Positions 34,163 through 52,346 of a DNA stretch of 63,887 bases are shown here, in pieces. The stretch is taken from NCBI GenBank assembly GCA_945905925.1, contig CAMDQN010000019.1, positions 1-63,887 on the forward strand, written 5' to 3'. Below the pieces are notes generated by a model that saw only the letters and a list, made by a program, of their open reading frames with translations, was not told the origin of the DNA and did no database searches. How positions within the stretch are numbered: the first letter of the stretch is position 1; each line of letters begins with the position of its first letter. Both the position numbers and the translations under genes were made by a program. Source of the stretch: Singulisphaera sp. GP187 (GTDB lineage: Bacteria; Planctomycetota; Planctomycetia; Gemmatales; Gemmataceae).

Positions 34163-37100
34163 TCAATAGTAACTGCTCTTCTCCCACTCAGGGTTGAACC
34201 CGGTGCCCTCGCCGGCGAGCTGCTTCAAGTCGTTGTAACACTCGCTCAGCAATACCGGCGGCACCTTCCCCAACTCGATCGTCTTGTGGTGCCAACTGCT
34301 CCCGGTGTCGCCCTCGGGCTTCATCTTGGTGAACGACAACGAACCGAGCGCGGCGCGGCGGTCCTCTTCGGGCAGTGAGTTCCCGGAGAACTCGATCTCG
34401 GCGCAGATGCCGAGCGACCGGAACGGCTTCAGGTACTCGTGGAACCAACCGCCGTCCTGCGCCTCGCCGCGAACGTAGCCGGCCTTCGTCATCTTGCCGC
34501 GCATCTGGAACGTGCCCAGTTCGTAACCCTGGAAGTCGGTGATCGCGGTTTCCTTCGTCTTCGCTTCCGGGAGAGTGTAGGTCGCGCGGCCGAACTGCTC
34601 GAACACCGGCTCAATGGTGTAGTCGGTGAAGTGCTGCTTCCACACGGCGGCCAGCGCCGGCGGCGTGTTCGCGGTATGTGCGAGACGAATTAGCGTCTCT
34701 GGCGGGAACGTCACCGCGTCGTCCTTTTCATTGGTCAACGAGCCGTCTTCCAGCGGGCGGAAGCAACCCAGGAACTTGCCGCTCTCGCCCGGCTCGGATG
34801 CGCTCCACGCGAGCCTCACGCACATCCGCCCGACGATGGGGTGGTCGCCGAGGAACTGCTTCCAGTCCGCGAACGCCCACGCTCGCTGCGTGCAAAGTGC
34901 CTCGTACATCCGCTCACTCTGGCGTTTCACCACGTCCTTGACCTGCTTCTTCGCGTCGGTGAACGCCTTCTTCGCTTCCTTCGCTTTCACCGCATCGTCG
35001 GCCTTCGCGGGGGAAGGCAGCGCCTTGACGATCTTGCCGCCCTCGCCCTGAAGAATGGGTTCGAGTTCGTCGTCGAGCTTCGCGGTGAACTGCCGCGCGC
35101 CGTAATCGAGAACGAGTGTCGCGTTGCCGCCTTCAGCGGGCTTCGCGAAGCCGCCGTCGGGGATGGTGCGGTCGGCCAACTCGTCGAGCGTCCAGCCCTC
35201 GCGCTCCGCGAGCGCGTTGACGAACTGCGACGCGAGTGTGCGAAGGCCCGCCGTGCGGAACCGGTTCGCGATCGAGAGCAGCACCTGAAGCGCCATCGGG
35301 TGCTTGACCCACGCCAGCATCTCGATGAGCGACTTGCACTGACTCATCTTCTGCCCGAACCACGTGCGAATGAACTTCTCGGACATGCGAACGCAGTCCG
35401 CGTCCCCGCCCGCCGACACGATCGCGAGCAACCCCTTCGAGCCGCCGCGTTCGAGCCACCCCGTGAGCACGTACTTCGCGAGGGCAGACCTGTCGAGCGG
35501 CCGGCACATGGCGAGATAGCGCCGCAGAATTGGCCCGCACGCCGGGGCGTTCTGAGCTGCGGCCTGCACGAGCCACCACTGCACGATGGTCGGGTCCACC
35601 GGCTTGCCGGTGTCCGCCCAGTGAACCGCCGGAACCTTGTCCAGTTCGATGCCGTACATTTTCGGCGGCTTCTTCATCCCGGCTTCGGCTTCCTTCGCGA
35701 GCGCCTTGCGGTCGAGGAACTCGGTCACGTCGGCGCCGAGCTTCTCCAGCGCGATCATGATGACGCCCTTCGTCACCTCCTGCGCCTCCTTGCGGAACGC
35801 GGTCTTGAGCGCCGGAACGGCGGACTTGTCGCCGATGTTGCCGAGCCACTCCGCGGCGACATCGCGCACCGACTGCCGCGTGTTTGTCAGCCCCACAACA
35901 ACGCGTTTCGCCTTTTCCGGCAGCGTGCGCAGCGCCGCTTGCGCCGGCGCCCGGTCGGTCTTGATCTCGCCCATCGCGATGTCCCACAGGAGCGGGACGA
36001 ACCCCGGCGGGAGCTTCGGGAACGCGGCCAGCACCGTGAACGCGTTCCGCTTGCGCTCGGGGATGTAGTAGTCGCGCTCGTTGCTTCGCGGTGTGCCGGC
36101 CAGCGCGTCGCGAAGAACATCGAGGCGCTCGGCGAACGCCGGCCAGAGCGCCTCTGGTTCCCAGTCGCAGAAGTCGCGGTACTTCGAGTTGTTCTGAAGG
36201 TACGCGAACGTGATGATCCCCGGTTTGCCGTTGGGCAGCGTGGCGACAGCGGCGTCCAGTTCGCGCAACCCCGGCGGCGGTTCGCCGCGACCCCTGTAAA
36301 CGTCCAAGTCGGACGTGTCGCTCCAGTAGAAGTAGCCGTCGCCGCGTTCCAGGTCGAACCGGTGCAGCGCGTAACACAACCTGACGATGTGGATGAAATG
36401 AACCTGGGGCGGTGCGAACGATTCGTCGGCGAGCGTCCCGCCAAGTCTGCGGTAAGCGTCGCGAGCGGGGAGCGTATTGAGACCGCCGCTCACGAACTCG
36501 AAGAGTTCGTCCAGCAGTTTTCCCCCGAGCGGGGCGGGCTGCGTCGGCTTGGTCTTCCACGACGGGCGGTCCGGGGCGTTGTACGCGACGAGTTCCTGCT
36601 CGTAGGCCCGCGTCGCCGTCTCGTGTGCTTTCTGGAACAGCGCCCGGATGCGCGCGCGGGCTACCTCCGGGAACGGAACGAAACCGAGTTCGATCGCCAG
36701 CGGCGGGAACGTGATCTCTTCGCCGTCGCTGGGGTCGGGCGGGGCCGCGAGCAGCCTTTCGAGAGTCTGCTTGACCTTCTCGGCGGTTTCGGCCGCGAGT
36801 TGCTTCTTCAGTTTGGGAATGGCCTTCTCGCCTTCGATCCGCCACAGCAGCGCGGCGGCTTCGTTGCGCTGCACCGTACTCTTCCCGGTGAGCAGTCGGT
36901 CGAGGTGCGGCACGGCCACCGCCGCGTACTTGTGCAGCACGGGAGCGACCGTGTCGCGAACGCTCTTCGACGACGAAGCGCCGAGTGCCGCGAGTACGTC
37001 GATTGTCGGCGTGTAGTCGAACCCGAGTTTGGTCAACAGCGGAACGATTTGGTTCGCGAGGTAACCGCCGCTCTTTTCGAGCGACTCCCGGATCGCGGGG

Positions 37101-37957
37101 AGGTTCTCGGTGAGAACTTCCGGCCAGCCGCTGAACAACCCGTCCGCGTTGCTGGAACCGTAGTAGTAACTGGTGCTGCCGCGCCGCCGCAACGAGGAAA
37201 CGAGACTGGAATCGAACAGCAACCGGAGCGCTTCGCGGGGCGGAAGTTTGGCCTCCGCGAACAGTGCGACCAGCCGCTCAGCGGGCCAGACCGCGCCTTC
37301 CGACCGGGAACCGCCGTCCTGGAACGAGACGACCAGTTCGCCGAGCGCCGACGCGAGCCAGTCGGGCCAACCGGAGATTGGGGCGGCTTTGCGCCCGGAG
37401 GCGCGAGCCGCGGCCTCGAACACTTCACCGAGCCGGCTCCACACAACGGGTGGAGTTTCTTTTCCCGCGCCGTAAACGCCGACCCGTTCCTTCTGGATGT
37501 CCTGCCGGAGCGTGTACGGCACGTCGTTGGACACCCCCGAGAGGGCGAGTGACTTCCCGGCTTCGGCCGCCTTGCCGATGCTGAGGAGAACGTCCGCGTC
37601 GTCGCCGTTCAGCACATACGCGACGGTTTGGGCGGCGAGGTCAGCGTCACCGATCCGCTTGAGGTGTTTGGTGAGAGCCTTCACGAACGTGGAGTTGATT
37701 GACGTGGGAAGCGGCGCCTTCACCGGCGCGGGCGTCGGTGCCGCGATCGGCTGAACCTCCGCGATCGGTTCTGGGGTCGCGGGGGGCTTCGGCTTCGCGG
37801 CCACCTTCGGTTTTGCTGTGGCCTTCGGCTTTGCGACGGCTTTGCGATTCGCAGCCAGTTTGCCTTTCGCTACTGCGTTCGGATTCGTGGCCGTCTTCGA
37901 CTTGGTCGGTGCCTTCGCGGTCTTGGTGTTCGACTTTTTCGCCGCTTGGTTGGCCAT
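34163..37957 (-). CDS. DUF4132 protein with histone-like basic tail (MolR/YehI-like)
   Basis: 1264 aa, first gene of the MoxR/vWA operon. Residues 1-60 are a Lys/Ala/Pro-rich tail (AKPKATAKPKVAAKPKPP) like that of H1-type DNA-binding proteins, followed by a Pro/Ala linker. A long helical HEAT-like region follows (about 85-900, e.g. HLDRLLTGKSTVQRNEAAALLWRIEGEKAIPKL). The DUF4132 domain is C-terminal (about 990-1264; GRMCVRLAW, ITDFQGYELGTFQMRGKMTKAGYVRG, FHEYLKPFRSLGI, LLSECYNDLKQL). In E. coli the homologue neighbours the yehL-yehQ genes. The start at 37957 is the first Met before the basic tail. Confidence 0.88.
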   Translation of the reverse strand: MANQAAKKSNTKTAKAPTKSKTATNPNAVAKGKLAANRKAVAKPKATAKPKVAAKPKPPATPEPIAEVQPIAAPTPAPVKAPLPTSINSTFVKALTKHLKRIGDADLAAQTVAYVLNGDDADVLLSIGKAAEAGKSLALSGVSNDVPYTLRQDIQKERVGVYGAGKETPPVVWSRLGEVFEAAARASGRKAAPISGWPDWLASALGELVVSFQDGGSRSEGAVWPAERLVALFAEAKLPPREALRLLFDSSLVSSLRRRGSTSYYYGSSNADGLFSGWPEVLTENLPAIRESLEKSGGYLANQIVPLLTKLGFDYTPTIDVLAALGASSSKSVRDTVAPVLHKYAAVAVPHLDRLLTGKSTVQRNEAAALLWRIEGEKAIPKLKKQLAAETAEKVKQTLERLLAAPPDPSDGEEITFPPLAIELGFVPFPEVARARIRALFQKAHETATRAYEQELVAYNAPDRPSWKTKPTQPAPLGGKLLDELFEFVSGGLNTLPARDAYRRLGGTLADESFAPPQVHFIHIVRLCYALHRFDLERGDGYFYWSDTSDLDVYRGRGEPPPGLRELDAAVATLPNGKPGIITFAYLQNNSKYRDFCDWEPEALWPAFAERLDVLRDALAGTPRSNERDYYIPERKRNAFTVLAAFPKLPPGFVPLLWDIAMGEIKTDRAPAQAALRTLPEKAKRVVVGLTNTRQSVRDVAAEWLGNIGDKSAVPALKTAFRKEAQEVTKGVIMIALEKLGADVTEFLDRKALAKEAEAGMKKPPKMYGIELDKVPAVHWADTGKPVDPTIVQWWLVQAAAQNAPACGPILRRYLAMCRPLDRSALAKYVLTGWLERGGSKGLLAIVSAGGDADCVRMSEKFIRTWFGQKMSQCKSLIEMLAWVKHPMALQVLLSIANRFRTAGLRTLASQFVNALAEREGWTLDELADRTIPDGGFAKPAEGGNATLVLDYGARQFTAKLDDELEPILQGEGGKIVKALPSPAKADDAVKAKEAKKAFTDAKKQVKDVVKRQSERMYEALCTQRAWAFADWKQFLGDHPIVGRMCVRLAWSASEPGESGKFLGCFRPLEDGSLTNEKDDAVTFPPETLIRLAHTANTPPALAAVWKQHFTDYTIEPVFEQFGRATYTLPEAKTKETAITDFQGYELGTFQMRGKMTKAGYVRGEAQDGGWFHEYLKPFRSLGICAEIEFSGNSLPEEDRRAALGSLSFTKMKPEGDTGSSWHHKTIELGKVPPVLLSECYNDLKQLAGEGTGFNPEWEKSSYY

Positions 37958-38104
37958 TGGTAAGTGTCTCGAAAGGGACCAAGATGGTGGTCTGAGAAAG
38001 GTAACCGGTCGTTCGGCGCTCCGCAATCCCCGGTGCGAAGAGACTCCGGTGATGACGAGGAGTTGCCGCATGGTACCCGGTTCGGGCACGAAAACACGAC
38101 CGCA

Positions 38105-40404: not shown

Positions 40405-40643
40405 GAGGCGTACTCTGAAGGTGAGGGTGGGGAGGGGCGGGTGCCCTTCACCGGCGATGGTATCATGATCGGTCGGTAATGCCATCCGTTTTCGAGTGCT
40501 GTCGAAATACTCGGTCTTGTTCCCACGAAACCGGCTGTCGGTCGGTGTGAACCCGGCACAACGGGTCTCGACGAAGCGTGATGCCGACACTCGCACTTGG
40601 TACAGTGAAAGCGGTTAGCACCTCTATATTGGGAGTCGCAGTT

Positions 40644-42263
40644 ATGCAACGGCGGTGGCCGTTAGTCGCGGGCGTGTTGGTGTTGGGGTTGGTCGGCGCC
40701 GTGGTACTGGTCCGGTCGGGGTGGTTCGGCGCGAGTGTGGCCGAACCGCGACCCGTGCCGGACGGCGACCAGGAAATCGCGTGGCTGCACATCCCCACGT
40801 CCGGCGATTCGTGGGAGAACTTCGTGTGGGGGATGAAACGCGCGGAGATGAGCGCCGCTCCCACAGGCCTTCGTGTGGACGACTCCGGCGCTTTCCCGTC
40901 GAGTACGACCGCGGTGCCCGAGATCGTCCTTTCGCGCGACGGGTTCGCGGGCAAGCTCCGGGTCCGCTGGTACAAGGTCACCAACGACGCGCCAAACGCG
41001 GCCTGGGTAAAGGCACTGGCGGCCCGCAATCCAACCCCGCTCGCGATCATTGGTGGGTGGTCCAGCGACCGCGCGCGCGAACTCGCTGAAGCGATGGCCT
41101 CAACCGCGTGGCCCGGACAAAAGCCGCTGCTCCTGTTGGCCACTGCGACCGCCGATTCCGTGGATCCCGAGGAGAACTCTGCGAACGGTAATACCCCCTC
41201 GAAGCTCATCGAACTCTACGATCGCTCGTACCGATTCTGCTTCACGAACAAGCAGATGGCTGACGCGGTCAGTGCCTTCGTCTTCGCGGACCCGACCCTG
41301 CGCCCCGGTCCTGCAGTGCCGCCCGAATTGCGCGCCGCGGCCGGCGCCGCCGGCAGCATTTGGGGGTTCCCGTGGTTCGCGGAAATGGCCGGCAAACCCC
41401 AACCCATTCAGGCGTTCGCGGTCGAATGGATGGACGATCCCTACTCGAAGGATTTGTCGCAGCAGTTACGCGAGGCCTTCGCGAAACAGGGTGGCAGACC
41501 CGGGCGCCCGCAGCTCGAATTCGCAGCGTTCCGGGTGCCATTTAGTGCCGGCCGGTTCGCCCGCCCGAACCCATTCGAGGCGCGAATTGTCGATGACATC
41601 CTCGCGCACCCGAAGTTCCCGCAACGCGGAGATCGCACGGTTGTGGTGATTCCCACGGTCACGGCGCCCGCACGCCGGGTTCTGGGCTCGCTAGCGCAGG
41701 GCAACCCCGGCGCGGCCTGGCGCCTGGTTGCGGTGACCGGCGACGGCATCCCGGTAAACGCGCTGTTCCGCGACGGCGAGTTCGCGTGGCCCGTGCGGGC
41801 GGTTCCGATCCCACTCGTGTTGTTCACACACACCGACCCTTGCGACTGGGACGAACCCGGCGACCCTCGCCCGCCCCAAGGGTACGAACTCAGGCCGCCC
41901 GTCAAGCCTGGCGAGGTGAAGAACAGCACCGAGGACATTCAACTGTTCACGCTGCTCACCAGGGTCGTCGCGCGGGGCGCATTCGCTGAGGGAACCGACC
42001 GGTTGATCGCCGGTCCGGACCAACTTGTGGAGCAGTTCCGCACGTTGACACCGGCGGTTTTTGAGTCATCGGGGAACCGGATCAGCAGATCCGGGGAACA
42101 CGTGGTCGTACTCCGCCCAACGCCGCGGATCGAAGGTACGGTCACGTTTCCGGACGCGGTGCTGGAAGTGTGGACCCAGAAGCCGGACGAGGGTTGGAAG
42201 CGTATCCACTCGTGTCCTGTGGTGCAGACGATGCACCCGGACAACAGGGGGGCTGGCGAATGA
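40644..42263 (+). CDS. Membrane-anchored periplasmic-binding-like protein
   Basis: 539 aa. One N-terminal membrane helix (PLVAGVLVLGLVGAVVLV) is followed by a large extracytoplasmic region. The alternating alpha/beta segments (LAIIGGWSSDRARELAEAMAS, PLLLLATATADSVDPEENSA, YDRSYRFCFTNKQMADAVSAFVF, RTVVVIPTVTAPARRVLGSLAQ) are reminiscent of a type-1 periplasmic-binding fold. Ribosome site GGGAG supports the start at 40644. The stop overlaps the ATG of the histidine kinase (ATGA), so a ligand-sensing pair is likely. Ligand unknown; the fold call is tentative. Confidence 0.6.
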   Translation: MQRRWPLVAGVLVLGLVGAVVLVRSGWFGASVAEPRPVPDGDQEIAWLHIPTSGDSWENFVWGMKRAEMSAAPTGLRVDDSGAFPSSTTAVPEIVLSRDGFAGKLRVRWYKVTNDAPNAAWVKALAARNPTPLAIIGGWSSDRARELAEAMASTAWPGQKPLLLLATATADSVDPEENSANGNTPSKLIELYDRSYRFCFTNKQMADAVSAFVFADPTLRPGPAVPPELRAAAGAAGSIWGFPWFAEMAGKPQPIQAFAVEWMDDPYSKDLSQQLREAFAKQGGRPGRPQLEFAAFRVPFSAGRFARPNPFEARIVDDILAHPKFPQRGDRTVVVIPTVTAPARRVLGSLAQGNPGAAWRLVAVTGDGIPVNALFRDGEFAWPVRAVPIPLVLFTHTDPCDWDEPGDPRPPQGYELRPPVKPGEVKNSTEDIQLFTLLTRVVARGAFAEGTDRLIAGPDQLVEQFRTLTPAVFESSGNRISRSGEHVVVLRPTPRIEGTVTFPDAVLEVWTQKPDEGWKRIHSCPVVQTMHPDNRGAGE

Positions 42264-43969
42264 GTTCCCCCGTCGCGAAGAGTGAGGCGCCTCACCTCTC
42301 AGTGTGGCGGTACGCGGGCCGGCTCGCGCCGCTCGCGGTGCTCTGGGTTGTGCTGATCGGACTGCTGGTTTGGCTGCTCGCGACGCGCGCGAACTGGGGC
42401 GAGGAGTCCGACCGCGCGGATGTGCGCGAGTGGCTCGATAACACCCGCGTGTTCCGCAAGACGCTCGCCGAACTGGTGAAGGAGTACGTCGATTTCCTCA
42501 ACGCCGAGGTGCGCGGCCCGGACCACGACGACCGCGTGAAGAACAAGCGCGCGGAGATCGAAGAACACTTGCGCGCGATGGTCGAACCGACGCGCATGTA
42601 CTCCGGCCAACTTCCATTATTCCCCAACGTGTACTCGCTCGAAGTCGAGTTCGCTGGGGTGACCGGTCTCGACGGTCATCCGGTGGAACCGGTGGTGTGG
42701 ACATCGCCGAAGCCGCGCCCCGGTGGGCCGGCGAAGGCGCAACTCCGCACGCTCGAATACGAACCACCACTCAACCGCGCGGGCGCGCGGGCGCAAGTCC
42801 GGTGCGTGTACCAACTCCACTCGTTCAACCGGATGCAGAAACAGCAGGACGAGTACCGGTTGTGGCAGGCGATCGCGGCCTGCGTGCTGGTGCCCACGAC
42901 GTTGCTCGCGGTGTTCCTCGTGGCGCGGTTCGTGCGGCGCGAACAGGCACGCGAGTTGGAGAAGTGGCGGACCACCGCCGAGTCCGAACACCGGCAGCGC
43001 GAACTGCTTGCCGCGCAGGTCGAGCGCGAACTGATCGAGAAGCACCTGCTCGAAGCCCGCATCAAGCAGCAAGAAGCCGAGCGGTCGAGTGAAGAGTTGG
43101 GGCGCAAGTTGCTCGAACAGGAACTGGAGGCCGCGAAGTTGGTGAACCGCGCTGCGGAGGCCGAGCGCGAGGCACTGGAGATGAAGTCGCAACTCTACGC
43201 GAGCATCGGCATTATGGCCGGGAGCTACGCGCACAACATCAAGAACCTGCTGGTGCGCCCCAACGACCTCATCGCGCGCTGCATGGACGCGGCCGGTGAC
43301 GCCGAACAACACGGGCGCCTGGAAGAAGTGAAGACCACACTCGGCACGGTCACGGAGCGGCTTCAGCAGATCCTGCGCACGGTGCGCCGCGACCCCGAGA
43401 ACGCGGAGCTAACCCAGGTCGACGTGTACGATCTGTTCGGCGACACCGAGCGCACGTGGGGCGAGATGGGGCGCGAGAAGTGGAAGCTCGCGGTGAGCGC
43501 GGAAATTCCCCCGGGTGCGGCGCTCATCACGGGCGATCTTTCGCACCTTCAGCAGGCGCTCGAGAACCTCGTGTTCAACGCGCGCGACGCGACCTTCGAG
43601 ATGCGGAACTACCTGCGCGACGAGGCCAAGCGCGCGACCGACCCCGCGGAAAGGCGGCAGAAACTCCTCGACGCAGCCGCTTGGAAAGGCGAGGTTCGCT
43701 TGCGTGCCCAGTGCGACGGCGATCACGTCGTGCTTGAGGTTCGCGACAACGGCATCGGGATGACCGACGAGGTGCGCCAGAATTGCCTGAAGACGCATTT
43801 CACGACGAAACGCGACAACGCACTTTACGAAGGCTACAGTGCGGGCATGGGACTGGGGCTGTCGTTCGTGGCGATGGTGGTCGAGCACCACGGCGGCACG
43901 CTGGAGGTTGACTCCGCCCCGCTCCGCGGAACGACCTTCCGCGTCCGGTTCCCGCTGGTTTTGGAGTGA
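42260..43969 (+). CDS. Membrane histidine kinase
   Basis: 569 aa. Two membrane helices (about 25-45 and 212-232) bracket an extracytoplasmic sensor region of about 165 residues. A long Glu/Arg-rich coiled coil (about 235-315) leads to the phosphoacceptor segment IGIMAGSYAHNIKNLLVRP (His near 325). The ATPase domain has ENLVFNARDATFEM (N box), LEVRDNGIGMT (G1), and MGLGLSFVAMVVEHHGG (G2). It is coupled to the upstream binding-like protein. No response regulator is nearby, so the partner must be encoded elsewhere. Ends at the inverted repeat shared with ung. Confidence 0.88.
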   Translation: MSSPVAKSEAPHLSVWRYAGRLAPLAVLWVVLIGLLVWLLATRANWGEESDRADVREWLDNTRVFRKTLAELVKEYVDFLNAEVRGPDHDDRVKNKRAEIEEHLRAMVEPTRMYSGQLPLFPNVYSLEVEFAGVTGLDGHPVEPVVWTSPKPRPGGPAKAQLRTLEYEPPLNRAGARAQVRCVYQLHSFNRMQKQQDEYRLWQAIAACVLVPTTLLAVFLVARFVRREQARELEKWRTTAESEHRQRELLAAQVERELIEKHLLEARIKQQEAERSSEELGRKLLEQELEAAKLVNRAAEAEREALEMKSQLYASIGIMAGSYAHNIKNLLVRPNDLIARCMDAAGDAEQHGRLEEVKTTLGTVTERLQQILRTVRRDPENAELTQVDVYDLFGDTERTWGEMGREKWKLAVSAEIPPGAALITGDLSHLQQALENLVFNARDATFEMRNYLRDEAKRATDPAERRQKLLDAAAWKGEVRLRAQCDGDHVVLEVRDNGIGMTDEVRQNCLKTHFTTKRDNALYEGYSAGMGLGLSFVAMVVEHHGGTLEVDSAPLRGTTFRVRFPLVLE

Positions 43970-45082: not shown

Positions 45083-48000
45083 TCAGGGCGCGTCCACGTC
45101 GAGCCACGCGGTCACGTCAAGGCGCGTGTGCGGGGTACAGTGGTTCGTGTCGGGCATCGCCTCGTAAGCCGCGGACGCCGTTGGGCCGAGGTGCGGTAGC
45201 GCCGCGAGCGGCACCGACACCCACTCGCGGTAAATCGTCAGGTCGTCGCGACTGTCAGTGATTGGTAACCCCGCGATCGGGATCGCGCGCCGCGCCAGTT
45301 CGCGCAACGTCTCGCCCGATGCGCCGCCGGGACATGCGAGCACCGCCACTTCTGAACTGCTCCAAGGGCCGTTCCCGGTCCACGCCGGTTCCGCTTCCTG
45401 ATACGCCTGCTCGATGGCCCGCTCCGCTTGTTGCGGGGTGCGGAATCGCTCCGCGAACATCTCTGCCAGCGCTACCTCGCCGAGTCGTTGGTCCAGGTGC
45501 GCGCGGGCCTCCTCGAACATGATTGCGATCACCCCCTCGACGCCGGCACTCGAGTTCAGACAGAGCTGGAACAGTCCGCCGGCTTTTGGTTCGAGGACCG
45601 ACTGCACGCGGCGGTCGATCTCGGTCATGTCCGCGTCGGTGAGTACCTTCAGGAATCGGTCCACCGCATCGCCGATGCTCTGGCACCCTGGCGGCATGAA
45701 CCGGCGTAGCGACACCGGCGGTTCGGGCGGTTCGTCGGGCACGGTCGCGCTCGCGGTCGCCATGCGCTGGCGGGCGATCGCGATGTCGGCGACCTGACCG
45801 GCCAGCGCGTCGCGCACCGTCTGGTAAACGCCGACCAGTTGGCGGAACGTGATCGCCTGAAACCGGGCACGCGGGTACTGACGCAGTGCGTCGGCCAGTT
45901 CCGCGGCGCTCGGCTTCCACATCCCCTTGTGGTAGTGCGCGTAGCACGAGAGACACTCGAACCCGGTGACTGCCTTGGAGTCGAGTTCGATCGTCAGTTG
46001 CGTGTACCGTACGATGTGGCGGTCCGTCACGGCGAGGAACTGTCGGAACAGTTCTTCGGTCCCGGCGAGCCTGAACCCGGCGTCGTCCACAAGAATGGGG
46101 GCGAGCGTGTGCAGGTCCAGCACGAACGCGGCGCCCTTCGCCGCGGCGCCCTTCGCCACGGCTGCTTCGATCGCGGTCGGTGGGCGATTGAGCGAAGACG
46201 AGGGTGGCCCGAGTATCCGGTTGAGGGTGTCGAGCGCGAGGTTGACCTGGGCCGGTTCCGGGAGCCGGTTGAGCCAGCCTCGCGGCAGGAGCGGTTCGGT
46301 GAGCGCCCCCATCGCCTCGTCCACCTTCACGCCGCTCGCCGCGTCCGCGGCGCGCTGTAGGTGGCCGAGGACCGTATCCGGGTCGAGGCCGAGTTGGGTC
46401 CACCGGCTTGCGGCGATCCCGGGCATCACCTCGCGGGCGCGCTTTAGGTCGGGCGCGGCCCAGCGTTTCAACATCGCGCGCCCGACGGTCGCGGCGGTGC
46501 GCGCGACCACATCGGCGCGGGGCCAGTCGAACGTCGCCACGCCGAACGCGGAGATTGCCACCGGGCCGGGCTTCTCGGACACTTCTTCCGCGGCGCGCGC
46601 CTCATCCGCGGCGCGGCCGATCGGCGCGAACAGGTCCAACCTAATGCGATCGGCTGCGTCCGCGAACGGTTCGAGTGCGGAGCTTGCCCCGTCCGGGTCC
46701 GGGGTACGCTGCATGGCGAGCGAAACCACCTGCGAGCCAGGCTTGTTCACGATGCCGGAACCCGGTCCGCGCACCCGCGAGCCGGGGTTCGGAATGCTTG
46801 TCGGGGTGCGCCGCGGCGGCGGGCTGACCCCGGCTTGCGCCACCATCCCGGACGCGGACCCGGGCAGCAGGTAGCATCGCGTAAACGGTGCGTCCTTCTC
46901 CTTCACATACCCGTTCCGCTCGTCGTAGTGCGCGGTGAACAGCGTGTCGGGCCGGCTGTAGTGGTTCAGTTCGGTGAGCGCGGCGTAGGTGTTCCCGAGT
47001 GCTTGTGGCGGCGTGAGCGTCGCGTCCGCGGGCGGCAGCACGAACAACCCGATGATTTCGGGGCGGTCGTACCCCATTCGCTTCAACCGACTGCGCACCG
47101 CGTAGGCCAGATCGAGGAACATCCCGCCGGCGGTGCCGCCCGCCAGACTCCCGGTGAGGTACACACGCGGACGGTTGGAGCGGCGATTCAACCCGGTGCG
47201 GCTCTCGGTGAGCAACAGCGCGTCGGGCGTGACGGCGGCATCGAGTTCCGCCTGCACGCGCGACATCAGCGCGCGGTAGTGATCGAGGAACGCGAGCCGG
47301 CCGAACGAACGGATGCCGAGCGTCTGCGGATTTCGTGGGAGCTTGTAAAGCAACTGCGGGTCGAACCAGCCTTCGGTCAGGGAGCGGCCGTTGAACCGCG
47401 GCTTCATGTAGTGCCCGGCGCGGTTCAGCTTCGCGGCAAACGCCTCGTTGGGGGCGAGCGCGGCGAGCCGGTCGGCGCGGCGCTCGCGGACCGCGTCGTC
47501 GAGGGCTTCCGCGTCGGTGTCGATGAACAGCGCGCGGATCGCGGGCGTCAGGTTCGACGGGCCGTAGCGCTCCGCGAGGTCGAACCGCAACCGCTGGATG
47601 ACGCGCAGCCCGGCGTTCCCCAACCCGAGTACCAGCGCCGGTTGAAGCGGACCGTCGCCGCCGAGTTCGGGCGGGGCCGGCGTGAACACCGGGCCGTAGG
47701 CATCGGCGCCGTGGGGCGGGGTGTCGGTCACGGACACGATCGCGGAACTCAGCGCGGCCGGCACGCCAATCAAGTTCGGCGTGTCCGTCTCGGACGCCCC
47801 GAGCCGCGCGTGGATGGTCGAGCCGTTCCCGCCGGCGCCGGGCAGCGCGCGCACGAACGCGGACACACTGGGCCACCGCTCGTTCGGTTTCTTGGACAGC
47901 GCGCGGGCCAGCGTGGGCCGGTCGCCGGGCGGGCTGGGGTCCAGATTGGGCGGCAGGTTCAAGTGCTGCATGAGCAACTGGCTCATGCTGCTGCCGTCGA

Positions 48001-48664
48001 ACGGGCGCATCCCGGTGAGCAGTTCCTGGTACACGCACGCGAGGCTGTATTGGTCGCAGTAGCGGGTGACGACGCCGTCGAAGGTTTCCGGGGCCGCGTA
48101 CACCGGGGTGATGCCGCCGGTGACCTGCGCCATCAGCCCTTGCAGGTCTTTCACCTGTCCGAAGTCGGCCACTTTTACGTGGTTGTGTAGCAGGAACAGG
48201 TTCTGCGGTTTGATGTCGAGGTGCTGCAACTGGAACTGGTCGTTGAAGAGGTCGAGTACCTCGGCGGTCTCGATCATGTACTGAAGGAGTTCTTCGCGCG
48301 GGATGCCGATCAGCCCCTTGTCGCGGCACTCGCGGAACCGGTCCCAGAGGTTGCGGTCGGCGAGTTCCATGACGATCATGAGCCGACCGTCAACGATGTC
48401 GTAGCGGTCGAGCGCGAGCAGGTACGGGTGCCGCACCCCCTGAATGCGTTTGAGCGACTTGAGTTCTTGTTCGGCGTAGCGAACGAGGTCCGAGTCTTTG
48501 GACCGTAGGTCGCCGTGGATGATCTTGACGGCTTTGAAGATGCCGCCGGGCGCCTCGCAGCGCCAGACCTCACCGAACCCGCCCGCGCCGAGGCGATCGA
48601 GGAGTTTGTAGCCGGGGATCGGCTCAACCTGGGCTTCGGGACGAACGGGCATCGGACGGCCCAT
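45083..48664 (-). CDS. Ser/Thr protein kinase fused to a tubulin-like (Tubulin_2) domain
   Basis: 1193 aa. Residues 18-280 form a complete Hanks-type kinase: GAGGFGEV loop, Lys47 in KAVKII, HLDIKPQN (148-155, catalytic Asp150), DFG (167-169), and APE. A short linker leads to a tubulin/FtsZ-like domain from ~340 (LVLGLGNAGLRVIQRLR) with a Gly-rich signature loop GSLAGGTAGGMF near 500-512 in the place of GGGTGTG. The remaining C-terminal half is helical with a CxxC pair (CLSCYAHYH). A cytoplasmic kinase coupled to a GTPase-like filament or switch domain is implied. No membrane helix is seen. M1 is used as start; a Met at residue 5 is possible. Confidence 0.85.
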   Translation of the reverse strand: MGRPMPVRPEAQVEPIPGYKLLDRLGAGGFGEVWRCEAPGGIFKAVKIIHGDLRSKDSDLVRYAEQELKSLKRIQGVRHPYLLALDRYDIVDGRLMIVMELADRNLWDRFRECRDKGLIGIPREELLQYMIETAEVLDLFNDQFQLQHLDIKPQNLFLLHNHVKVADFGQVKDLQGLMAQVTGGITPVYAAPETFDGVVTRYCDQYSLACVYQELLTGMRPFDGSSMSQLLMQHLNLPPNLDPSPPGDRPTLARALSKKPNERWPSVSAFVRALPGAGGNGSTIHARLGASETDTPNLIGVPAALSSAIVSVTDTPPHGADAYGPVFTPAPPELGGDGPLQPALVLGLGNAGLRVIQRLRFDLAERYGPSNLTPAIRALFIDTDAEALDDAVRERRADRLAALAPNEAFAAKLNRAGHYMKPRFNGRSLTEGWFDPQLLYKLPRNPQTLGIRSFGRLAFLDHYRALMSRVQAELDAAVTPDALLLTESRTGLNRRSNRPRVYLTGSLAGGTAGGMFLDLAYAVRSRLKRMGYDRPEIIGLFVLPPADATLTPPQALGNTYAALTELNHYSRPDTLFTAHYDERNGYVKEKDAPFTRCYLLPGSASGMVAQAGVSPPPRRTPTSIPNPGSRVRGPGSGIVNKPGSQVVSLAMQRTPDPDGASSALEPFADAADRIRLDLFAPIGRAADEARAAEEVSEKPGPVAISAFGVATFDWPRADVVARTAATVGRAMLKRWAAPDLKRAREVMPGIAASRWTQLGLDPDTVLGHLQRAADAASGVKVDEAMGALTEPLLPRGWLNRLPEPAQVNLALDTLNRILGPPSSSLNRPPTAIEAAVAKGAAAKGAAFVLDLHTLAPILVDDAGFRLAGTEELFRQFLAVTDRHIVRYTQLTIELDSKAVTGFECLSCYAHYHKGMWKPSAAELADALRQYPRARFQAITFRQLVGVYQTVRDALAGQVADIAIARQRMATASATVPDEPPEPPVSLRRFMPPGCQSIGDAVDRFLKVLTDADMTEIDRRVQSVLEPKAGGLFQLCLNSSAGVEGVIAIMFEEARAHLDQRLGEVALAEMFAERFRTPQQAERAIEQAYQEAEPAWTGNGPWSSSEVAVLACPGGASGETLRELARRAIPIAGLPITDSRDDLTIYREWVSVPLAALPHLGPTASAAYEAMPDTNHCTPHTRLDVTAWLDVDAP

Positions 48665-50043: not shown

Positions 50044-52110
50044 TTACCACCGAATACCGGGCGGCGTGGGCGGGACAATGGGCGAGACAATCGGGGGATC
50101 CCGGTGCCACGTCTCCACCACCTCTTGCGCCGTGTTTGAGCTCATGCCCTTGGTGAGAGTCGTCGATACGATCTCGCCAGCGGTCGATTCGACCAACTTC
50201 CTCGGGTTGACAGGGGAGGAGAGCGTGGTGACGTTGGCGTCGGGGGTCCATTTCCCCGTTGGTTTCGGACGCCCGGCGGCGTCGCGGGTGGGATCGTCGA
50301 GCGACCCGCCATCGACCTTGCCAGAGGCGTCCCAAGTCCACGGGATTGAAGCCCGAATTGTGTACGAGTCGTTCGCCGTGTTGACTTCCTCTCGCGTCTG
50401 AACGACGAAGTACGTGACGAAGTTCGCTTTGAGCCAGAAGCGACCGACCATAATCCCTTCTTCGACCATCTTCGGCACTGCCGCCCAGTCCGGGGCGTCG
50501 GCCATGTCGAACACCAGGTTCTCCTTCACGTTCGCCCCGAAGCGCCCGTGCCGCGCCTGACCTTTTTTCGTCGGGTCGTATACCTGCTCGTACCACGGCT
50601 TGCCCCCATCGACGATCGAGTCGATGTAACTCTTCCCCTCAGTATTTGAGATCATGCTGAAGTCGTTGAAGAGGGGGAAGGTGCCAGCGAAGTCGCCGCG
50701 CTTCCGAACGTGGGTGATGGTCTGCACGAAGCCGATGTCGATGAACTGCTGGCCACGCCGGACGCCATCGACGAGAGGGCCGGCGAAGCGAGAAACCTTG
50801 ATGCTTGCGTACATCGACCCGGGAGCGTCGTCGACGACCTCATATTGCGGCGCGGAATGGACACCGTTCCTATCGGTCCTCTGAGCCTGCATATCCGCGT
50901 CCAGCACGAGTTTGTTGTCCGCGCCAGCCGCGTCCAGTTGGACCTTGACGACGTTCACCTGCCGGGTGACGAAGAAGCCGCCGGGGACGTTGACCCGGTA
51001 CGTGCCGACGACCTCGCCCTCGCCCCAGTTGACGATCAGCCCGTTTACCGTGGCCCCGCCGCCGGGCGCGGGTGCGCTCGGTACGACCGAGTGCTGTGTC
51101 CCACCAGCGATGGCCCCGAAGGTTGCCGCGACCTGACCGGGAATGGTGGTCACGTAGGTGTGCCGCGAGTACCCCGGCACATTCTGCGCGCCTTTCACTT
51201 GGTACACCGTGAGCAACACCTGATCGATGATCGCGATCGCGTTCCCGCGCACCCATTCGAGTGCAACGGACTCGGCGTTGACCGCGGAACTCAGCCCCAG
51301 TCCCTCCGCGTAGACCGTGTGCGCGACGAGCGGATCGAACTCCGTCACGCTGCTAATGACCTGACCCCCGCTCTTATCCGTGTTCATCCAGAGGCGAATA
51401 TTGGGACTGGTAAAGTTGAGACGGGCCGTGTCCCCGGCAACGGCACCGGTGATCGGGTCAAAGTGAATGGCGACGAGATCGTCTTCCCCCGCGACCGCGG
51501 CGAGTTCGTCCTTGTCGGCGATCTGATCCAGCGACGTGTCGGGGTCGCCGGAGAAGTTGTAGTTGTCGTTGTCGTCGTTCTCCGCGACCCAGCCCTCTTC
51601 GGCCTCCCCGTATCCATCCGACCGGACAGCTGTGATCGACCCAGAAACCGGCGGGATGTCGTAGATGTTCACGGTGTCGTAGCCAAGCCCGCCGATCGTA
51701 CAGCCCGAGACCGCGGTCAGGGTGACGTACACTGTCTCGGTTCCTTCCACCAACGAGTCGGGGAGCGCGGCGAGGGTCAGCAGTTTCGTGCCCTTGGTCG
51801 GCTCGAACTCGATCTCAAAGTTCGTGGACCCAGAGTAATCGTCGCCGGCGGTCGCGGTGCCTGTCAAGGTGATCGCGACCGTCGCGGAGTTCGTCGTGTC
51901 CGTTCGCGTGAGTTGGATCACGGCCGGGTTGCCACCCTCGGTCGCGTGTATGACCTCGATGCTGACCACCGACCCCGCCGTTGGCACCACGCGATCCTCC
52001 AAGGCTGTCACGTTCAGCCGCGCCCGGTTGGGCGTTGGCGCCTTCAGCGTACCCGGCTTCGTGAACCGCTGGAACAGGCGCGTGGCCAGATTGCGAATGT
52101 TGAGCGACAT
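50044..52110 (-). CDS. Large secreted protein with LEDRVVP N-terminus and Calx-beta domain
   Basis: 688 aa. There is no standard signal peptide; instead MSLNIRNLATRLFQRFTK is followed by RARLNVTALEDRVVPTAG, the short 'LEDRxxP' motif seen at the start of many planctomycete cell-surface proteins. A Calx-beta-like domain follows (SVVSIEVIHATEGGNPAVIQLTRTDTTNSATVAITLTGTATAGDDYSG). Later parts are beta-rich and unrecognised, with Asp-rich segments (AENDDNDNYNF) that could bind calcium. The start at 52110 has a GGAAGGA ribosome site and removes an upstream repeat-coded extension. Confidence 0.75.
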   Translation of the reverse strand: MSLNIRNLATRLFQRFTKPGTLKAPTPNRARLNVTALEDRVVPTAGSVVSIEVIHATEGGNPAVIQLTRTDTTNSATVAITLTGTATAGDDYSGSTNFEIEFEPTKGTKLLTLAALPDSLVEGTETVYVTLTAVSGCTIGGLGYDTVNIYDIPPVSGSITAVRSDGYGEAEEGWVAENDDNDNYNFSGDPDTSLDQIADKDELAAVAGEDDLVAIHFDPITGAVAGDTARLNFTSPNIRLWMNTDKSGGQVISSVTEFDPLVAHTVYAEGLGLSSAVNAESVALEWVRGNAIAIIDQVLLTVYQVKGAQNVPGYSRHTYVTTIPGQVAATFGAIAGGTQHSVVPSAPAPGGGATVNGLIVNWGEGEVVGTYRVNVPGGFFVTRQVNVVKVQLDAAGADNKLVLDADMQAQRTDRNGVHSAPQYEVVDDAPGSMYASIKVSRFAGPLVDGVRRGQQFIDIGFVQTITHVRKRGDFAGTFPLFNDFSMISNTEGKSYIDSIVDGGKPWYEQVYDPTKKGQARHGRFGANVKENLVFDMADAPDWAAVPKMVEEGIMVGRFWLKANFVTYFVVQTREEVNTANDSYTIRASIPWTWDASGKVDGGSLDDPTRDAAGRPKPTGKWTPDANVTTLSSPVNPRKLVESTAGEIVSTTLTKGMSSNTAQEVVETWHRDPPIVSPIVPPTPPGIRW

Positions 52111-52242
52111 GGGCGGACGTCCTTCCGAGGTGAGGTGATACGCCAACCGCATTACCGTAACAACCAGCACCCCCACCCCGTTCAAGGGGAATTCCGAACA
52201 ATCGGACCAGATTTCCGTTGTGTCCCCCAAAGGTAAAGAACA

Positions 52243-52346
52243 GGCGAGCGGGGGGCGTAAGCCCCCTGTTGCGCTCACGACGACCTTCGCGGTCGTCGCG
52301 GGAAGTTGTTGGTGTCGCAACAGGGGGCTTACGCCCCCCGCTCGCC
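52243..52346. repeat. Perfect 31-bp inverted repeat, family b
   Basis: Arms 52243-52273 (starting ggcgagcggggggcgtaagc) and 52316-52346 are perfect complements, with a smaller hairpin (gacgacc / ggtcgtc) in the loop. It lies between the divergent starts of the LEDRVVP gene and purF, so here it is in a promoter region and not at a 3' end. The remaining ~240 bp of 52111-52454 shows no gene. Confidence 0.95.

Follow-up and report, generated by a model that had tools for sequence, protein, structure and literature searches.

A Planctomycete Ser/Thr Kinase Fused to a Predicted Tubulin Fold: Domain Structure, Distribution and Gene Order

The stretch of DNA analyzed in this work (the window) comprises 63,887 nucleotides of Singulisphaera sp. 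GP187 (contig CAMDQN010000019.1 of assembly GCA_945905925.1), here contig C19 of a genome of 6.47 Mb in 251 contigs which is 96.6% complete. Its minus strand, which carries all the features described below unless stated otherwise, contains at 45083-48664 a single open reading frame of 1193 amino acids, whose one chain combines a Hanks-type Ser/Thr kinase with a Tubulin_2 (FtsZl1) domain; the product is referred to as KT (kinase-tubulin). The fusion as such is already known: it has been in print since 2010, when four planctomycete proteins of this kind were reported (Makarova & Koonin 2010, PMC2875224), and has been mentioned again in papers of 2023 and 2024. FtsZl1 has been reported in Gemmata massiliana (PMC4672568), 'tubulin-like' cytoplasmic Ser/Thr kinases of Planctomycetota were described in 2024 in a text whose available parts give neither paralogue groups nor structure nor gene context (PMC11032199), and Ser/Thr kinases of Tuwongella have been detected in Triton and SDS fractions, the accessible part of that study holding nothing specific on KT (PMC8567305). 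Judged by title, the papers listed in our literature search include neither an experimental study of PF13809/FtsZl1 nor a link between KT and ScpA; a KT gene next to scpA and a split tubulin subdomain, the two features described here that point beyond the published fusion and are worth testing, were not found in print in a search of the main texts of published, mostly freely accessible papers.

The fusion gene and its kinase domain

Pfam recognizes Pkinase at residues 19-231 (E 3.6e-26) and Tubulin_2 (PF13809) at residues 344-601 (E 2.8e-36; 125.9 bits against a gathering score of 27), which together with the single frame bears out a sequence-only reading of this DNA that had placed a complete Hanks kinase and a Tubulin_2-like domain in one chain. 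The motifs that it had located also lie where it put them: K47, HLDIKPQN at 148-155, DFG at 167-169 and GSLAGGTAGGMF at 505-516. Since the initiating methionine of many orthologues aligns with residue 5 of the window protein, the true start of the gene is probably at 48652. Two further Tubulin_2 genes are found by Pfam in the same genome, on contigs C97 and C165, each of the three with a kinase in front; the window gene belongs to paralogue group B and the C97 copy to group A (see below).

Near-full-length orthologues are present in genomes of the same genus and are 54-86% identical to the window protein, the nearest one (86%) coming from a record titled 'Gemmataceae bacterium' (L054). Compared with four orthologues, dN/dS amounts to 0.07-0.12 for the kinase, 0.09-0.17 for the tubulin part and 0.17-0.27 for the C-terminal part. 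Because orthologues of nearly full length exist and all these ratios lie between 0.07 and 0.27, sequence comparison argues that the fusion is not a chance joining and that all parts of the chain are under purifying selection. The same order of conservation emerges from an alignment of 92 rows (open reading frames of at least 500 amino acids reaching past residue 450), with a median identity to the window protein of 66% for the kinase (80 rows), 44% for the tubulin part (91 rows) and 23% and 29% for two C-terminal stretches (86 and 84 rows, respectively): by identity and by dN/dS the kinase ranks highest and the C-terminal stretches lowest. Such a gradient fits a working kinase attached to a regulating or scaffolding module. 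The linker joining the two (residues 276-340, 47645..47839) is poorly conserved, mostly predicted to be disordered (pLDDT below 50 at residues 280-322) and variable in length, measuring 50-153 residues with a median of 100 in 79 rows.

The kinase domain (residues 15-275, 47840..48622) shows a predicted PknB-like fold. PknB is the best match of the modelled domain (Z 29.4, rmsd 2.1 over 250 residues), with other kinases tied within 1 Z; a sequence search of the PDB instead puts a different kinase first, 7naa_A (E 1.4e-24). No NCBIfam model scores above its cut-off on the window protein, and that for PASTA kinases remains far below it (72.8 versus 450 bits). The Hanks-type signature is present, with P-loop, VAIK lysine, catalytic aspartate and DFG. 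Among the 82 kinase-bearing rows of the alignment H148, D150, K152, N155, D167, F168, G169 and T186 are invariant, K47 and E67 occur in 80 each and T182 in 78. T182 could presumably be the activation-loop phosphosite and T186 the P+1 threonine. The window kinase differs from PknB-type Ser/Thr kinases, with which it shares the fold, in its catalytic loop (HLDIKPQN, 48200..48223), where HRD is replaced by HLD; leucine takes the place of this arginine in 81 of the 82 rows. We take KT to be what is called a non-RD kinase. Leucine in place of the HRD arginine suggests control by means other than phosphorylation of the activation loop.

Predicted structure of the tubulin-like module

The AlphaFold2 model of the full-length protein has a mean pLDDT of 89.2 and a pTM of 0.70; that of fragment 329-1193 reaches 91.4 and 0.86. 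When this fragment was compared with solved structures by VIA-align 2, the CetZ protein of Methanosaeta thermophila (3zid_B) was matched with a Z of 22.7 and an rmsd of 3.4 over 301 of 342 residues, the match extending over fragment residues 12-845 and chain residues 1-344. Tubulins followed at Z of about 21, in alignments reaching residues 420-430 of their chains; rows within 1 Z count as tied, so the tubulin part has no single closest relative. Judged from titles and chain lengths, the 50 Foldseek matches listed consist of tubulins, gamma-tubulins and TubZ; the best E is 4.8e-5. With 301 of the 342 CetZ residues aligned, both tubulin subdomains presumably take part in the match, and the C-terminal region of KT is, as modelled, a whole tubulin fold whose C-terminal subdomain is split by a helical insert of about 360 residues. 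The structural comparison with FtsZ and tubulin that the sequence-only reading had proposed as a check therefore came out in favour of a tubulin-like fold. The fold over both subdomains is common to the model and to CetZ, tubulin and TubZ (Z 20.7-22.7 among 50 matches listed), from which the window protein differs by an identity of 10-16%, the long helical insert within the C-terminal subdomain and the fused kinase.

The nucleotide-binding domain occupies residues 341-604 (46853..47644), as indicated by PF13809, the models and the fold match. It begins with a conserved loop GLGNAGL (residues 347-353, 47606..47626), equated with T1 from the order of elements, and its second strand is followed by a near-invariant DTD (residues 382-384, 47513..47521), which resembles the NTD of FtsZ. 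The T4 glycine loop (residues 509-514, 47123..47140) reads GGTAGG in the window protein. The sequence-only reading had seen this motif in place of the GGGTGTG of FtsZ; the letters are indeed there, but they are not the motif of the family, which is mostly GGTG[SG]G; the glycine-rich loop characteristic of the tubulin/FtsZ superfamily has the form GGTG[ST]G. Position 512 is glycine in 90 of the 92 rows, alanine being found only in the window protein and in a group-A protein of Zavarzinella (L067), and position 513 is serine in 55 rows, glycine in 36 and a gap in one; the nearest orthologue has GGTGGG.

After an insert that is mostly predicted to be disordered (residues 605-653, 46706..46852; low pLDDT in the models), the model and the alignment place an H7-like helix, a candidate T7 loop and the strand and helix that open the C-terminal subdomain at residues 654-736 (46457..46705). 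By element order the predicted subdomain starts with strand 703-713 and helix 716-736 and is completed by elements at 1105-1174; the remaining strands and helices belong to residues 1099-1193 (45086..45370), where they follow from predicted secondary structure and from CetZ and tubulin alignments that reach fragment residues 844-865. The candidate T7 loop, likewise equated by element order, has the form PxGRxxDxxR, with D687 conserved in 72 of the 83 non-cyanobacterial rows that have a letter at this position.

Between the two parts of the subdomain lies the all-helical insert (residues 737-1098, 45371..46456), whose modelled helices span fragment residues 412-762 and include two that are 45 and 55 residues long. 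In 84 rows it measures 360-457 residues (median 370). Seven cyanobacterial rows have 391-392 residues in the same stretch, poorly aligned (9-12% identical in one displayed row), and the similar length suggests that such an insert probably characterizes the family more widely. Published descriptions agree in part with the model. FtsZl1 was said in 2010 to have a coiled coil and a mostly helical region after its FtsZ-like domain (PMC2875224), and it shares with the window protein the Tubulin_2 domain, the helical region and the N-terminal kinase; long helices stand in for the coiled coil in our model. The available text of the same paper states that T6-H7 was not confidently identified and that no similarity was found for the C-terminal domain, whereas the present model has candidate elements of the T6-H7 region and a split C-terminal subdomain. 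The Pfam domains FtsZ_C and Tubulin_C have been described as missing from the family (PMC9871819), for which the splitting of the subdomain offers a reason.

Sequence-level searches of the PDB retrieved no solved structure of the Tubulin_2 family. Residues from about 310 onward gave nothing as a single sequence, and a profile of residues 329-1193 matched chains that by name are helical proteins; the best of them, ZorA (E 8.6e-6), aligns inside the helical region. Among viral structures (BFVD) the best match was a phage tubulin with an E of 3.5e-3, none falling below 0.001.

A proposed mode of action

An intact and most constrained kinase, a variable linker and a tubulin-fold module are most simply read as a GTP-gated kinase activated by assembly. 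We propose that KT is a signalling protein of the planctomycete FtsZl1 (Tubulin_2) family in which the tubulin-fold module controls the fused Ser/Thr kinase, a proposal whose chances of being right we judge to be even. GTP binding would drive the tubulin modules to associate with each other, and possibly also with those of the paralogue KT-A; the association would bring the kinase domains together and switch on the non-RD kinase, which would phosphorylate in trans, and GTP hydrolysis would reset the protein. The helical insert might serve as a lever or as an arm binding a partner. GTP binding, assembly, kinase activity, the coupling between them, substrates and cell location are what we infer for KT. 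In 2010 it was left undecided whether FtsZl1 has the elements needed to form filaments (PMC2875224, as far as its available text goes), and a whole predicted tubulin fold with a helical arm bears on that question.

Several observations weigh against this proposal. The sequence data would be just as compatible with a protein that does not assemble at all, and the literature search turned up no biochemistry of the FtsZl1 family. The profile of residues 329-1193 gave no tubulin or FtsZ match among PDB chains at E up to 10, and the TM-scores from Foldseek are low (TMt 0.29-0.42), which large inserts would lead one to expect, and taken alone they are weak. With Ala512 in its glycine loop, the protein of this species might bind nucleotide less well. 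The candidate T7 aspartate is absent from 11 of the 83 non-cyanobacterial rows and replaced by lysine in all seven cyanobacterial ones, so hydrolysis may not be general.

Distribution, paralogue groups and gene neighbourhood

Tubulin_2 was found in 58 of 79 genomes (the present one and 78 relatives): in 45/49 of the same family, 7/7 of a second family of the order and 3/3 and 3/4 of two families of the class, with none in the other four families. G193, a genome of one of these four (f4), does match Tubulin_2 in a wider sample of 148 genomes covering the phylum (the present genome included), of which ten have a match and eight of them score above the cut-off. A scan of named genomes gave 358 relatives among 406 pattern matches, and the best 80, representing 76 distinct loci, were kept. 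The seven cyanobacterial rows match the window protein only from about residue 324 on; one of them was scanned with Pfam and has Tubulin_2 and no kinase. Kinase-tubulin genes also occur in two records that bear the title 'Bacteroidales bacterium' (L062, L105) and in one called 'Isosphaera sp.' (L110), titles that look misassigned; on the tree described below, L105 and L110 group with Gemmataceae rows, whereas L062 is not placed.

This distribution bears on the idea that the KT family replaces FtsZ in planctomycete division, the unusual-division role suggested by the sequence-only reading. A predicted tubulin fold would suit it, as would the lack of any PF00091 (FtsZ/tubulin) match in the window genome at E up to 0.001, in a search that was positive for 13 of 14 control genomes. 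A separate FtsZ is in fact absent from all 79 genomes, the sole PF00091 match (in G019) lying inside a kinase-tubulin gene. But 21 of the 79, including one of the same family that is about 100% complete (G046), have neither PF00091 nor Tubulin_2, and over the phylum Tubulin_2 matches only 10 of the 148 genomes sampled. Within the genus itself, G003 (about 100% complete) and G006 have best matches to the window protein of only about 1e-133 and 40-odd % identity, the E value being 0 in the other 17 genomes, so the window gene itself seems dispensable. In view of this distribution the replacement of FtsZ by KT is hardly credible, and the division role finds no support.

A quick tree of 85 chains was built from rows with coverage from before residue 90 to past residue 1100 and 12 added chains, including those of the window genome. 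It carries SH-aLRT support and no bootstrap, and flagged long branches make deep placements within group A unsure. Group A (32 rows, support 93) includes the C97 copy and group B (31 rows, support 99) the window protein; 22 of the 85 rows lie outside both, nine of them in a third group with the C165 copy (support 98) and 13 elsewhere. The C165 copy (L035:4776-10794) faces a gene for an FtsH-type protease, a neighbour seen in 4 of 13 loci compared, with no operon, and was set aside as a functional clue.

Two KT copies stand in tandem on one strand at 17 of the 76 loci. In the 11 tandems with both members placed on the tree the order is always A then B; in the remaining six only one member has a place on the tree, and it agrees with this order. 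Next to KT, on the same strand, scpA follows in at least eight genomes, one per genus (G019, G026, G027, G028, G030, G037, G041 and G043), a count that contig breaks make a lower bound; between the KT stop and the first aligned scpA base there is anything from an overlap to 194 nt. Five of the copies preceding scpA belong to group B, that of G041 lies outside A and B, and the tree does not include the copies of G037 and G043. In G019, G026, G027 and G028 the full order is a divergent 4-HFC-P synthase gene, KT-A, KT-B and scpA, with small open reading frames between the synthase gene and KT-A in three of the four. The loci having the A-B-scpA order or scpA behind KT include L047, L048, L050 and L133; at L075 scpA begins 864 nt behind the KT gene, and the A-B tandem next to scpA is present in the named strain Zavarzinella formosa DSM 19928 (L067). 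A homologue of 4-HFC-P synthase was found in 33 of 97 sequences searched (duplicates included), and in the window genome its gene adjoins the A copy. The genome G046 mentioned above, which has no Tubulin_2 match, carries scpA and 4-HFC-P synthase as direct neighbours 136 bp apart (L139:9718-11332); judged by its gene order, this is the same site without the KT pair, reflecting either loss or the ancestral state.

The A-B tandem beside scpA points to a concrete process, the organization of the chromosome. KT-A and KT-B might assemble with each other in a GTP-dependent manner and act on it through the SMC kleisin ScpA, for example by phosphorylating ScpA or SMC or by placing the complex. The KT-scpA order in genomes of eight genera, the four-gene order in four of them and the A-then-B tandems at 17/76 loci all speak for this; yet among genomes from other genera of the family the order is found in 8 of the 23 possessing both genes, and it is found in none of the 19 of the genus itself, where the compared KT copies lie apart except for neighbouring ones in G014, and the scpA of the window genome is on contig C29, apart from the window gene. 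The eight cases may represent one old gene order that has persisted, shared transcription need not imply shared function, and G032, G039 and G046 have ScpA without Tubulin_2. We therefore treat the ScpA link as a lead from gene order and the action through ScpA as unlikely. More doubtful still is an extended version for Gemmataceae, according to which a two-subunit KT-A/KT-B would co-assemble with GTP and its kinase would control the SMC-ScpAB condensin, so that in cells lacking FtsZ a cytoskeletal polymer carrying its own kinase would act on the organization of the chromosome.

The genes flanking KT were surveyed with Pfam in a set of 70 immediate neighbours hand-chosen from 137 genes within two places, from which one KT entry was dropped, in which two overlapping reading frames upstream of the window gene were replaced by the in-frame gene, and which does not include G014 (L040, L142). 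ScpA accounts for six of the 70; three of the six come from L130-L134, which were chosen because scpA adjoins KT there, so this count is inflated. The KT relatives have ScpA and 4-HFC-P synthase as recurrent neighbours, whereas FtsZl1 in the 2010 paper has vWA, GTPase and OmpA neighbours (PMC2875224, text seen in part); among the 25 most frequent of the 78 Pfam families in the 70 genes there is no vWA, OmpA or P-loop GTPase family and no defence family.

Two other explanations have to be weighed here. The membrane-remodelling system proposed for FtsZl1 in 2010 consists of a vWA protein, a P-loop GTPase and an OmpA-like protein, and kinases belong to the FtsZl1 operons (PMC2875224). KT could be part of it, being a kinase of the same Tubulin_2 family, and in L036-L039 and L054 the orthologue does have a mechanosensitive-channel gene and a weak, sub-cut-off outer-membrane-efflux match in its vicinity; the lack of vWA and OmpA among the 25 most frequent families and of any such Pfam neighbour beside the window gene counts against it, and we consider this reading rather improbable. 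Conflict control, also raised by the sequence-only reading, would make KT an anti-phage module, its kinase acting as an effector that is set off when the tubulin part assembles. Tubulin-containing GTPase systems of firmicutes and actinobacteria have been proposed as conflict systems (PMC7159879), similarity to PADLOC kinases is seen in the kinase part (mad6, E 8e-35; PD-T4-6), and there is a weak NCBIfam MADS6 match (56.6 versus 460 bits). The best 25 of the 28 PADLOC matches all fall within the kinase (residues 5-304), the family is present in 45/49 genomes of its own family, unlike patchy defence genes, and defence is absent from the 25 frequent neighbour families; the conflict role is thus unsupported and very improbable.

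The genes next to the window gene, a UDG gene and a secreted-looking upstream gene (start about 50011), were compared by tblastn with 118 other loci, gave no match at E up to 1e-6 and were set aside as clues. Elsewhere in the window, a protein of 758 amino acids with a Calx-beta domain is encoded at 50044-52320 (minus strand), and a 1308-amino-acid protein with DUF4132 and HEAT repeats at 34163-38089 (minus strand). At 40578-43969, on the plus strand, the gene of a 561-amino-acid protein with no Pfam match overlaps that of a 599-amino-acid protein with a histidine-kinase-type ATPase domain, and the two perhaps form a sensor pair.

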